In this document: one piece after another, positions 61,073 through 64,000 of the stretch
Position numbering within the stretch: the first letter of the stretch is position 1
How the letters are laid out: every line of letters begins with the position of its first letter
Assembly (NCBI RefSeq): GCF_004346265.1
Contig: NZ_SMAP01000007.1
Location: 62,001-126,000, forward strand
From: Thermomonas haemolytica
GTDB lineage: Bacteria; Pseudomonadota; Gammaproteobacteria; Xanthomonadales; Xanthomonadaceae
Reading direction: 5' to 3'
DNA: 64,000 bases
Notes under the pieces: model-generated
What the model saw: the letters and a program-made list of their open reading frames with translations, nothing else
What the model was told of the DNA's origin: nothing
The model's database searches: none
Made by a program: the position numbers and the translations under genes

Positions 61073-61095
61073 CGTCCCCGCTCTGGAAGCTCTGA

Positions 61096-61239
61096 ACAAC
61101 GCCATCCAGGCGTTGTCCGCCCACGCCGAGTCCGGTACATGCCTGGACTCGGCTCACACGCTTCAATCACTTGCATGATCGATGCGCGGCCGGCCATCCA
61201 TGGCCGGCGGGAACCTCTGAGTTGATCAGAGGTTCCCGC
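61096..61239. promoter_or_regulatory. Four consecutive inverted repeats upstream of the sigma-factor operon
   Basis: Within 144 bases lie four hairpins: ACAACGCC/GGCGTTGT (61096-61116), GCCGAGTCC/GGACTCGGC (61125-61153), GCCGGCCAT/ATGGCCGGC (61189-61208) and a perfect 14-base repeat GCGGGAACCTCTGA/TCAGAGGTTCCCGC (61207-61239) with a 5-base spacer. The first two could end the upstream transcript; the last two lie 20 bases before the sigma-factor ATG and may be operators. None has a T-run. Confidence 0.7.
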
Positions 61240-61259
61240 TGCCGGTGTACGCTAAACCG

Positions 61260-61868
61260 ATGCCGGCACAGCACGCCCCCACCGATGTCGCCGCCGACTG
61301 CACGCAGCCCTTCGACTGCGTGCTCGGCGCCTGGCGGCGGTATGAAGGAGAACTGCGCGGCTTCCTGCGCCAGCGCCTGGACGCGCCCGACCTGGCAGAA
61401 GACTTGCTGCAGGAAGTATTCCTGCGCGCCCTGCGCCAGGGGCAGGGCTTTTGCCGCCTGGAGCAGCCGCGCGCCTGGCTGTTCCAGGTCGCGCGCAATG
61501 CCCTGATCGACCATGCCCGCACCACGCGCCCCCATGCGCCCCTGCCGGAGACCCTGGCGGCTCCCGGCGACGAGGAGCGCCCGCCGGTGGATGCACTGGA
61601 CGCCTGCCTGGGGCGCAATCTGGCGCGCCTGTCCGCCGAAGATCGCGCCATCCTCGAGGCCTGCGACCTGCGCGGCCAGACGGTCAAGGCCTATGCCCAG
61701 CACGCCGGGTTGAGCCTGGCCGCGGCCAAATCCCGGCTCCTGCGCGCCCGCCAGCGCCTGCGCGATGCCCTGGTGCAGCACTGCCAGGTCCAGTTCGATG
61801 CCCAGGGCCGGGTGTGCTGCCACATCCCGCCCGAGGCGCGCGCTTCCGCCCCGTCGGTCGCCCCCTGA
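61260..61868 (+). CDS. SigZ-like ECF sigma factor with a Cys/His C-terminal tail
   Basis: A 202-residue sigma factor. Region 2 has LRGFLRQRLDAPDLAEDLLQ with VFLRALRQG, and region 4 has LSAEDRAILEACDLRGQTVK with YAQHAGLSLAAAKSRLLRAR. The C-terminal tail holds His174, Cys175, Cys186, Cys187 and His188 (HC then CCH), a possible metal or thiol site. It resembles the SigZ group. No anti-sigma factor gene is adjacent. ATG 61260 was used with no clear ribosome-binding site; GTG 61245 is an alternative. It heads the permease-thioredoxin-rhodanese-OsmC series. Confidence 0.87.
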   Translation: MPAQHAPTDVAADCTQPFDCVLGAWRRYEGELRGFLRQRLDAPDLAEDLLQEVFLRALRQGQGFCRLEQPRAWLFQVARNALIDHARTTRPHAPLPETLAAPGDEERPPVDALDACLGRNLARLSAEDRAILEACDLRGQTVKAYAQHAGLSLAAAKSRLLRARQRLRDALVQHCQVQFDAQGRVCCHIPPEARASAPSVAP

Positions 61869-61906
61869 ATCCTTTTCGCCCCTGCTTCGTCTTCTGGTGC
61901 ATGAAG

Positions 61907-61927
61907 CCGGCCGCGACGCGCGGCCGG
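61907..61927 (+). promoter_or_regulatory. Hairpin between the sigma factor and permease genes
   Basis: CCGGCCGCG-acg-CGCGGCCGG, a perfect 9-bp stem with a 3-base loop, lies in the 87-base gap and ends 28 bases before the permease ATG. It may partly separate expression of the sigma factor from the rest. Confidence 0.5.
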
Positions 61928-61955
61928 TCGATCGCTTTCCAGGAGACGAGCCCCG

Positions 61956-63008
61956 ATGCATGCCACCGTTGCCCCGACCCCGACCCTGCGCTGGCCGCAG
62001 CGCCATCCGCGCCTGTTCCTGGCCGGTGGGGCGCTGCTGTGGTGGGCGCTGTACCGCATCCTCGAACCACTCTCGGAAACCGTGGTGGGGTGGCTGCCGG
62101 TCGCGCGCGATAGCCACCTCGGCAGCGCGCTGCAGTTTTTCTTCTACGACACCCCGAAGGTCCTGCTGCTCCTGACCGGGATCGTGTTCCTGATGGGCAT
62201 GGTCAACAGCTATTTCACCCCGGAGCGCACCCGCGCGCTGCTGGCCGGGCGGCGGGAAGGCATCGGCAACGTGATGGCCGCAAGCCTGGGCATCGTGACG
62301 CCGTTCTGCTCGTGCTCGGCGGTGCCGCTGTTCATCGGCTTCGTGCAGGCGGGCATCCCGCTGGGGGTGACCTTCTCGTTCCTGATCGCAGCGCCAATGG
62401 TCAACGAAGTGGCGCTGACCCTGCTGTTCGGCCTCTTCGGCTGGAAGATCGCGGCGCTGTACCTGGGGCTGGGCCTGGCGGTGGCGATCGTCGCCGGCTG
62501 GGTGATCGGCCGGCTGAAGATGGAAGCGCATCTGGAGGACTGGGTCCGCGAGATGCCGCGCGTGAGTGCCGCCGTCACCGACACCGGCATGTCCTTGGGC
62601 GAGCGCCTGCACGCCGGCTTTGCCAGCGTGCGCGAAATCGTCGGCAAGGTCTGGCCCTACATCCTGGCCGGCATCGCCATCGGCGCCGGCATCCACGGCT
62701 ATGTGCCGGAGAACCTGATGGCCTCGATCATGGGCCGCGATGCCTGGTGGGCGGTGCCGCTGGCGGTGCTGATCGGGGTGCCGATGTACACCAATGCCGC
62801 CGGGGTGATCCCGATCGTGCAGGCGCTGCTGGCCAAGGGCGCCGCGCTGGGCACGGTGCTGGCCTTCATGATGAGCGTGATCGCGCTGTCGCTGCCGGAG
62901 ATGGTGATCCTGCGCAAGGTGCTGAAAGTGCGCCTGATCGCGACCTTCGTCGCGGTGGTCACCAGCGGCATCCTGCTGGTCGGCTACGTGTTCAACGCGA
63001 TCCTGTGA
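61956..63008 (+). CDS. Permease of the DUF318/ArsP-like family
   Basis: A 350-residue membrane protein with about eight helices. The family motif TPFCSCSAVPLFIGFVQAG contains the Cys pair thought to bind the substrate, followed by GVTFSFLIAAPMVNEVAL. A second half repeats the fold (WAVPLAVLIGVPMYTNAAGV). The group includes ArsP, which exports trivalent organoarsenicals, and members of unknown substrate. ArsP assignment is tentative. AGGAG is 10 bases before the ATG. It is followed by the mini-thioredoxin gene. Confidence 0.87.
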   Translation: MHATVAPTPTLRWPQRHPRLFLAGGALLWWALYRILEPLSETVVGWLPVARDSHLGSALQFFFYDTPKVLLLLTGIVFLMGMVNSYFTPERTRALLAGRREGIGNVMAASLGIVTPFCSCSAVPLFIGFVQAGIPLGVTFSFLIAAPMVNEVALTLLFGLFGWKIAALYLGLGLAVAIVAGWVIGRLKMEAHLEDWVREMPRVSAAVTDTGMSLGERLHAGFASVREIVGKVWPYILAGIAIGAGIHGYVPENLMASIMGRDAWWAVPLAVLIGVPMYTNAAGVIPIVQALLAKGAALGTVLAFMMSVIALSLPEMVILRKVLKVRLIATFVAVVTSGILLVGYVFNAIL

Positions 63009-63069
63009 GCGCCCATCCCTGCCCCCATCCCCTCCAACCAAGCATCCAACGACGCAAGGAGAATGCACG

Positions 63070-63306
63070 ATGAAAACCGTCAAGGTCCTGGGCACCGGCT
63101 GCGCGAACTGCAAGACCACGGTCGCGCTGATCGAGGACGTGGCCCGCGCCAAAAGCATTCCGGTCACGGTCGAAAAGGTGGAGGACATCCGCCAGATCAT
63201 GGGCTATGGCGTGATGAGCACGCCCGGCGTCGTGGTCGACGGCAAGGTGGTGCATGCCGGCGGAATCCCGGCGCGCGAGCGCATCGAACAGTGGTTGAGC
63301 CAGTAA
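63070..63306 (+). CDS. Small redox-active thioredoxin-fold protein (MTH895-like)
   Basis: A 78-residue thioredoxin-like protein beginning MKTVKVLGTGCANCKTT, with a CANC active site and the cis-Pro segment MSTPGVVVDGKVVHAG. Proteins of this MTH895-like group sit beside DUF318 permeases and are thought to reduce thiols or metalloid bonds. CGCAAGGAGAATGCACG precedes the ATG. It lies between the permease and the Cys-tailed rhodanese, 16 bases from the latter. Confidence 0.9.
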   Translation: MKTVKVLGTGCANCKTTVALIEDVARAKSIPVTVEKVEDIRQIMGYGVMSTPGVVVDGKVVHAGGIPARERIEQWLSQ

Positions 63307-63322
63307 GCACGAGGAGGCCCAC

Positions 63323-63796
63323 ATGAACGACACCTACAAAGAGCTGTCGGAAGTCCCCCAGTTCTGCCCGACCCTGACCCGGCGCAAGCTCGAGGAAGAA
63401 AACGCGCTGCTGGTGGATGTGCGCGAACCGGATGAGGTCGCCGCCTTTGCCTTCGATGTGCCCAGCCAGATGCAAATTCCGCTGAGCGCGCTGCCGCAGC
63501 GCCTGCACGAGCTTCCGCGCGACCGCCTGCTGATCCTGGCCTGCGCGGGCGGCCAGCGCAGCCTGAAGGCCGCATACTTCCTGTCGTATCACGGCTTTTC
63601 CCAGGTCGCCAATCTGGACGGCGGGTTGGAGAAGTGGGCGCGCAAGGACTTTCCCGTCCGCGGCCAGGCCACCGCGTCCTGCTGCGCCGGCGGGGAATGC
63701 TGCGCGCCGTCCACGCAGGATGCCTCCGCAGCGGCTAGCGGCGGATGCTGCACACCTGCTGCGGAACCGGCCGCAGCCTCGCAAAGCTGCTGCTAA
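63323..63796 (+). CDS. Rhodanese-like sulfurtransferase with a tail of four Cys-Cys pairs
   Basis: A 157-residue protein. Residues 20-113 are a rhodanese domain with ALLVDVREPDEVAAFAF and the active-site loop LACAGGQRS (Cys 74). After residue 115 comes a Ala/Ser/Gly-rich tail with paired cysteines at 120-121, 126-127, 142-143 and 156-157 (the protein ends in Cys-Cys). Such a tail could bind As(III), other soft metals, or carry sulfane sulfur. GAGGAGGCCCAC precedes the ATG. It sits between the mini-thioredoxin and the OsmC-like gene. Confidence 0.9.
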   Translation: MNDTYKELSEVPQFCPTLTRRKLEEENALLVDVREPDEVAAFAFDVPSQMQIPLSALPQRLHELPRDRLLILACAGGQRSLKAAYFLSYHGFSQVANLDGGLEKWARKDFPVRGQATASCCAGGECCAPSTQDASAAASGGCCTPAAEPAAASQSCC

Positions 63797-63811
63797 GCCA
63801 CTGAGAACCCC

Positions 63812-64000
63812 ATGGAAACACCGCCGAAAATGACGTTCACGGTCCGCGCCCGCCGGGTGGATGCACACGGCAGCACGGCCCAGTGCAAATCCGCCGAGCT
63901 CGTGCTGGACACCGATCTTGCGGGCCGCAGCGATGCCTTCAACCCGGCCGAGCTGCTGCTGGCCGCGCTGGCGGCCTGCATGCTCAAGGGCATCGAACGG
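63812..64000 (+). CDS. OsmC-family protein, N-terminal part (cut by the window end)
   Basis: The first 63 residues only. The start METPPKMTFTVRARRV leads into the beta strands and the OsmC block AFNPAELLLAALAACMLKGIER, which contains the first active-site cysteine. OsmC/Ohr proteins reduce organic hydroperoxides or handle reactive sulfur species. ATG 63812 is 15 bases after the rhodanese stop; an internal ATG at residue 7 is an alternative. The second cysteine is beyond the window. Confidence 0.82.
   Translation, partial: METPPKMTFTVRARRVDAHGSTAQCKSAELVLDTDLAGRSDAFNPAELLLAALAACMLKGIER

Follow-up and report, generated by a model that had tools for sequence, protein, structure and literature searches.

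The 64,000-nucleotide stretch analysed here (the window) covers positions 62001–126000 of a 135-kb contig in the 2.59-Mb genome of Thermomonas haemolytica, and at its right-hand end lie five contiguous plus-strand genes that encode, in order, an extracytoplasmic function (ECF) sigma factor, an ArsP permease, a thioredoxin-like protein, a rhodanese and an OsmC protein, with intergenic gaps of 87, 61, 16 and 15 bases. An earlier note on this DNA had proposed just this order, on one strand and with short gaps, and all five genes are present as described, the last four (ArsP, thioredoxin, rhodanese and OsmC) exceeding the cut-offs of their families. It had also put the sigma factor at the head of the operon, which holds, although the gene begins not at 61096 but ~160 bases later: the start codon is the ATG at 61260 (a GTG at 61245 is also possible), and the 202-amino-acid product (61260–61868, plus strand) carries the Pfam domains Sigma70_r2 and r4_2, with SigZ (TIGR02959) as its nearest NCBIfam family.

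Each of the four downstream products can be placed in a known family. The permease (61956–63008, plus strand) scores 259.3 bits against PF03773 (ArsP_1; cut-off 32.3) and has the C(S/T)C motif of that family within TPFCSCSAVP; in excerpts of the ars operon survey by Yang et al. (PMC4435449), TPF ahead of CSC marks ArsP cluster 2, and the window permease, in which TPF precedes CSC, fits that cluster. A sequence search for a solved ArsP structure gave no match. The thioredoxin-like protein (Thioredoxin_3; 63070–63306, plus strand) belongs to the MTH895/ArsE family (TIGR00412; 96 bits vs. a cut-off of 62), has its CxxC as CANC, and matches MTH895 itself in the PDB (1ilo, E 7.8e-10). The rhodanese (63323–63796, plus strand; PF00581, 53.8 bits vs. 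22.2) has the loop CAGGQRS and, as the earlier note had it, four Cys-Cys pairs in a C-terminal tail; related rhodaneses with CC-rich tails occur at six other loci (L010, L011, L015, L031, L037, L039). Only the first 63 codons of the OsmC gene (63812–64000, plus strand; PF02566, 49.6 bits vs. 27.5) fall inside the window, the full gene, for a product of 139 amino acids, being at L003:4812-5231, and an OsmC gene sits at the same place in L015, L037, L039 and L011.

The sigma factor is SigZ-like rather than a curated SigZ, as its score against the SigZ profile (145.7 bits) lies under the cut-off of 168.65, and in the PDB it is closest to mycobacterial SigL, both by sequence and by fold. The built-in cysteine-bearing tail that had been proposed for it is real (HCQVQFDAQGRVCCH, with cysteines spaced C-x10-C-C), yet the CC pair of this tail is not where conservation is highest. 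Over an alignment of 92 rows, which takes in near relatives, C116, C135 and C175 are kept in all 92 and C20 and C65 in 91, vs. 72 for each of C186 and C187. In the AlphaFold model (mean predicted local distance difference test score, pLDDT, 89.2), strands at 177–179 and 185–188 suggest that C175 may lie near C186/C187 in a hairpin; the predicted template modelling (pTM) score is 0.53, so the placement of the two domains relative to each other is not reliable.

Between the sigma and ArsP genes lies a promoter-like site, new in this analysis and predicted to be the sigma factor's own: TGAATCCTTTT-N11-CGTCTTC at 61866–61894 on the plus strand, overlapping the sigma stop codon and followed 61 bases on by the ArsP start codon. 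Its predicted -35 element is TGAATCC and its predicted -10 element CGTCTTC. We examined its counterparts among relatives from a scan over 84,980 species' genomes, using the best 80 of at least 548 confirmed sigma loci, several of them cut by contig ends. The consensus TGCATCCTTTT-N11-CGTCTTC is present in all 54 sigma-ArsP gaps examined: 46 come from loci among the 80 taken by rule (ArsP next, same strand, ≤450 bases), one is the window's and seven are from hand-picked loci. All 54 differ in sequence, though the pattern was read off these gaps and its presence there is partly by construction. All 54 score at least 14 of 18, whether spacing is fixed at 11 or left free between 8 and 14 bases, in which case 11 is picked in 53; in a mononucleotide shuffle control, 6 of 1080 sequences attain 14, the lowest real score. 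The flanks of the site carry little information, except for the single preceding base (0.86 bit).

Beyond these gaps, the 80 loci hold 80 sites at ≤3 mismatches, vs. 4 when their sequences are shuffled once, with at least one site in 66 of the loci, and the site precedes ArsP even where that gene is kilobases from the sigma gene or on the opposite strand (L031, L038, L053, L068, L077, L087, L098). The window genome has a single exact (zero-mismatch) site, the one before ArsP; three more matches appear at three mismatches, as do three for a reversed-pattern control. Of 40 genomes traced from 40 of the 80 loci, 34 carry between one and three exact sites (40 in total; control 0). The gene downstream of 30 such sites is ArsP in 27 cases, the thioredoxin in one and, judged by eye, a thiolase-like open reading frame (ORF) in one, the remaining one having no assignment. 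The thiolase-like ORF lies in an Accumulibacter genome with three sites (L164), and another of the 30 (L156) belongs to a second sigma-ArsP-thioredoxin unit within one genome.

Within the order Xanthomonadales the site tracks the sigma factor closely. Among 299 genomes, the sigma (E ≤1e-20) occurs in six and ArsP (E ≤1e-40) in eleven, which include all six; sigma and ArsP genes are neighbours in every one of these carriers, divergently oriented in G109. A slightly looser pattern finds exact sites in seven genomes, precisely the six sigma carriers with one site each and one other (G240) whose site is probably chance, with none for the reversed-pattern control; as the looser pattern was fitted to the six carriers, what carries weight is that it is almost missing from the remaining 293 genomes and occurs once per carrier. 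The site is absent from the five ArsP carriers of the order that have no sigma. In four of those an ArsR-type gene adjoins ArsP, and in the fifth one lies ~6 kb off, whereas no ArsR-type gene was found in the examined stretches of the six sigma carriers, two of which (L010, L012) have an Acr3-type gene near sigma or ArsP. Because the site follows the sigma carriers and is missing from ArsP carriers without sigma, the sigma very probably transcribes the window operon, to judge from sequence comparison, and sigma and site almost certainly form a pair, the site being its putative promoter.

All five HTH_5 matches of the window genome are on contigs other than the window's, an arsR-arsC-arsB set lies apart on contig C1 (its arsC and arsB separated by an ORF resembling ArsH), and a search of the genome for SBF/Acr3 gave no match. 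The operon is thus not a canonical ars operon led by ArsR and equipped with an arsenite pump: there is no HTH_5 match on its contig and no Acr3, and ArsB is on C1. The C1 set may already cover inorganic arsenic, which would favour an organoarsenical role for the ArsP operon.

The wider set of relatives separates a core from its passengers. Dozens of genomes share the sigma tail and have sigma and ArsP genes side by side, which is more than chance. Over the 80 loci, ArsP is in reach in 65, the thioredoxin in 58 and both in 57; Acr3 is found in 37, any ars core gene in 41, and ArsP or an ars core gene in 71. Rhodaneses truly related to the window's (≥100 bits) are present in only three, four weaker rows of 34–42 bits (L072, L092, L096) having been dropped from that count, and OsmC in nine. 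The core is sigma, ArsP and thioredoxin, and the rhodanese and OsmC are occasional passengers. A single pathway built on the rhodanese tail, as first envisaged, is not supported as the core by these counts; as a label on the sigma tree, the rhodanese also needs five changes. The prospect that the genes would turn out to sit mostly apart in related genomes is borne out for rhodanese and OsmC and not for sigma, ArsP and thioredoxin, which stay together. What stands of the earlier proposal is a metalloid operon led, and very probably transcribed, by a sigma factor; control by the sigma now has the backing of a promoter-like site whose spacing is fixed among relatives, and arsenic is the narrower candidate for the metalloid.

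The full five-gene order was found in the window, on a Comamonas sp. C11 plasmid (L015), and in Comamonas testosteroni (L039), Tepidimonas (L037) and G244 (L011). On the Comamonas plasmid, the unit comes right after an annotated cluster of regulator, arsC, phosphatase, arsD, arsA, arsC and acr3, and annotated ars clusters hold the sigma gene on Ideonella, Sulfuricella, Citrobacter and Klebsiella plasmids as well. A DUF2789 gene and a cation diffusion facilitator (CDF) transporter recur near the sigma gene in L015 (9814–10971), L037, L039, L047, L066 and L092, and follow the five-gene set directly in the first three. The unit is also mobile: among 72,556 plasmid records, 112 match the sigma-ArsP-thioredoxin block taken from a Klebsiella huaxiensis plasmid, 101 of them across ≥80% of its length, chiefly from Citrobacter, Klebsiella and Enterobacter. 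At the protein level, the window sigma has weaker matches on 1383 plasmid records, all but one below 60% identity, six of which were examined. Bacterial families and classes are mixed on the sigma tree, which fits horizontal spread.

Arsenic genes also recur around the SigZ branch more widely. In a first sample, four matches exceed the SigZ cut-off, three of them adjoining ArsM (G384, G329, G333) and one ArsP and a thioredoxin (G373), and all seven matches besides the window have an ArsP, ArsM or ArsI-like gene in the examined stretches. In a wider sample of 29 Pseudomonadota matches, 15 have ArsP, ArsM, ArsI or Acr3 within ~1.5 kb. ArsI adjoins the SigZ gene in L180, L181 and L199 and ArsM in L182, each with the variant site TGC[AG]TC[CT]TTTT-N11-CGTCTTT or one near it; two of these neighbours, ArsM in L182 and ArsI in L180, exceed their NCBIfam cut-offs, and on a Hymenobacter plasmid a SigZ member has arsC and acr3 2–4 kb away. 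Distant SigZ genes that combine ArsM or ArsI neighbours with a similar site (L180, L181, L182, L199 and L127-L129) suggest a wider link between SigZ and organoarsenicals. CC pairs like those of the rhodanese tail were seen in ArsI-like proteins (L180 2128-2667, and L199) and in loops of two DUF318-type permeases (L188, L190), so that arsenic proteins encoded in such operons may often be adorned with CC-rich tails.

We propose, with a probability of roughly 0.7, that the window encodes a self-contained arsenical-efflux operon run by its own sigma factor at one promoter, the sigma standing in here for ArsR. A trivalent arsenical (likeliest methylarsenite or another organoarsenical, possibly arsenite) would enter the cell and activate the SigZ-like sigma, which would lead RNA polymerase to its one promoter at 61866–61894, from which arsP, the ArsE-type thioredoxin, the CC-tailed rhodanese and osmC would be transcribed. 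ArsP would then export the arsenical and the thioredoxin would keep either the arsenical or the pump reduced, the rhodanese and OsmC presumably serving as accessory thiol proteins. That arsenic is the signal seems likely from the company the genes keep, and we lean towards trivalent organoarsenicals as the substrate, given ArsP itself and the ArsM or ArsI beside some related SigZ genes. Whether the sigma is itself the sensor strikes us as evenly balanced. If it is, trivalent arsenic would bridge the C175/C186/C187 hairpin and/or C20, C65, C116 and C135 and so switch the sigma on, making it a one-protein positive switch that takes the place of ArsR and has travelled on plasmids, its regulon here being a single promoter; a larger share of the SigZ branch would then be organoarsenical regulators for ArsP, ArsM and ArsI.

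Several results weigh against this proposal. Besides the partly built-in agreement of the 54 gaps, no site turns up at ≤3 mismatches in 14 of the 80 loci, and nine have neither ArsP nor ars core genes, in some cases because contigs end. An ArsR-type gene is nearby in 34 of the 80, and in those ArsR could be the sensor. The tail CC pair, lacking in 20 of the 92 aligned rows, cannot be essential in all of these sigmas, which weakens it as a candidate for the essential sensor. A simple scan of the window genome gave no sigma-70-like promoter for the sigma gene, and autoregulation through the sigma's own site was set aside, no such site being found upstream of the gene in the window. In the SigZ branch, 14 of the 29 Pseudomonadota matches show no ArsP, ArsM, ArsI or Acr3 within ~1.5 kb, and within 5 kb of the SigZ-family genes carried by one Priestia and two Rhodococcus plasmids no gene is annotated for arsenic. 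An exclusive tie of the whole SigZ family to arsenic is, on these members, unsupported.

The ArsR-type genes near those 34 loci also speak for a relay, in which ArsR or another regulator senses arsenite and de-represses an operon containing the sigma gene, and the sigma, controlled by its amount only, then turns on ArsP. Such a relay accords with the position of the sigma gene behind a same-strand ars gene in many relatives (Acr3 in 17 of 80, ArsI in 8 of 80), including L010, a genome of the same genus, where Acr3 precedes it. The window operon itself has no ArsR nearby, however, and 34 of the 80 loci have ArsP with no ArsR-type gene in reach; the five near-invariant cysteines of the sigma would moreover be hard to explain without a thiol-based role, and we regard the relay as rather doubtful.

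A different signal altogether, i.e., another soft metal or reactive sulfur (antimonite, polysulfide, copper, zinc) with the arsenic neighbours merely hitch-hiking on resistance islands, would suit the rhodanese and OsmC, proteins at home in sulfur chemistry, as well as the CDF transporter near 13 of the 80 loci and the permease's NCBIfam relatives, among them SaoE and a Cu/Zn exporter, each scoring well under its cut-off. It is unlikely given that Acr3, ArsC, ArsD, ArsA, ArsM and ArsI recur around the sigma across many bacterial families and that, within the order, ArsP without the sigma is accompanied by adjacent ArsR-type genes. Most ECF sigma factors have an anti-sigma factor, and one encoded elsewhere might control this sigma as in ordinary ECF systems. 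Six annotated records of relatives list none within 7 kb, an absence judged solely from an incomplete gene table near the gene with no profile search made; a unit that moves between genera on plasmids also sits poorly with a distant partner, and we consider this arrangement highly unlikely.

The surroundings of the operon add a few observations of their own. Upstream on the same strand lies a DUF6671 gene, followed by a 187-base intergenic stretch with several strong predicted hairpins; window positions 61074–61243, ahead of the sigma gene, form consecutive strong hairpins with a fold z-score of -7.25, and one hairpin in this stretch, GGAACCTCTGA-N5-TCAGAGGTTCC, occurs a single time in the window. 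The minus strand of 61074–61159 scores 32 bits against the Rfam gyrA RNA motif, below its gathering score of 45. The ORF downstream of OsmC (169 amino acids) has no Pfam family match.

If the proposed operon is borne out, it would represent a second, activating mode of control for ars operons, present in many Proteobacteria and on enterobacterial plasmids; it would give a function and a promoter to a branch of SigZ-type sigma factors; and it would offer a positive biosensor part for organoarsenicals. In the searched literature (titles, abstract openings and partial lists), we found no report of ArsP, ArsM or an ars operon being under the control of a sigma factor, although the main ECF re-classification may describe the group.

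Among characterized systems, ars operons with ArsP under ArsR share the permease and thioredoxin families and, we expect, the function of the window operon. Reviews of ars operons, in the portions available, name ArsR as the regulator, whereas the window genome has a dedicated sigma and a promoter-like site with no adjacent ArsR. The Campylobacter ArsP exports methylarsenite and trivalent roxarsone and not arsenite, according to the available part of the report (PMC6205960). As for SigZ (TIGR02959), the sigma resembles it in best-scoring family, in its Cys-bearing tail and in the similar site beside ArsM- and ArsI-linked members; in a canonical SigZ (that of L127), counterparts of C116 and C175 are present and those of C20, C65 and C135 are not, and the tail has its CC before the hairpin and additional Cys at the very end, unlike the window sigma.

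CorE and CorE2 of Myxococcus xanthus are described in excerpts of the published accounts as metal-dependent ECF sigma factors of former group ECF44, now ECF238 (PMC3107203, PMC8999054). Like them, the window sigma is an ECF sigma with cysteines in a short C-terminal extension, encoded beside its presumed target genes. No anti-sigma gene is annotated near CorE and CorE2, and none appears within 7 kb in the incomplete gene table of the six records related to the window sigma. The window sigma differs in having no CXC in the linker between sigma2 and sigma4 (there is no Cys at residues 66–115), in a tail spacing of C-x10-C-C that matches neither CorE-type pattern given in the parts of PMC9023288 at hand (C-x4-C-x2-C-x1-C or CC-x3-C-x2-C-x1-C), in having five near-invariant cysteines of which four lie outside the tail, and in its link to arsenic rather than copper, cadmium or zinc. 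OrbS of Burkholderia cenocepacia, in the same excerpts (PMC9023288), is likewise an ECF sigma whose own C-terminus carries a Cys-based metal sensor, though Fe(II) inhibits OrbS and its motif and regulon differ. By analogy, the window sigma resembles CorE and OrbS in principle and not in motif.

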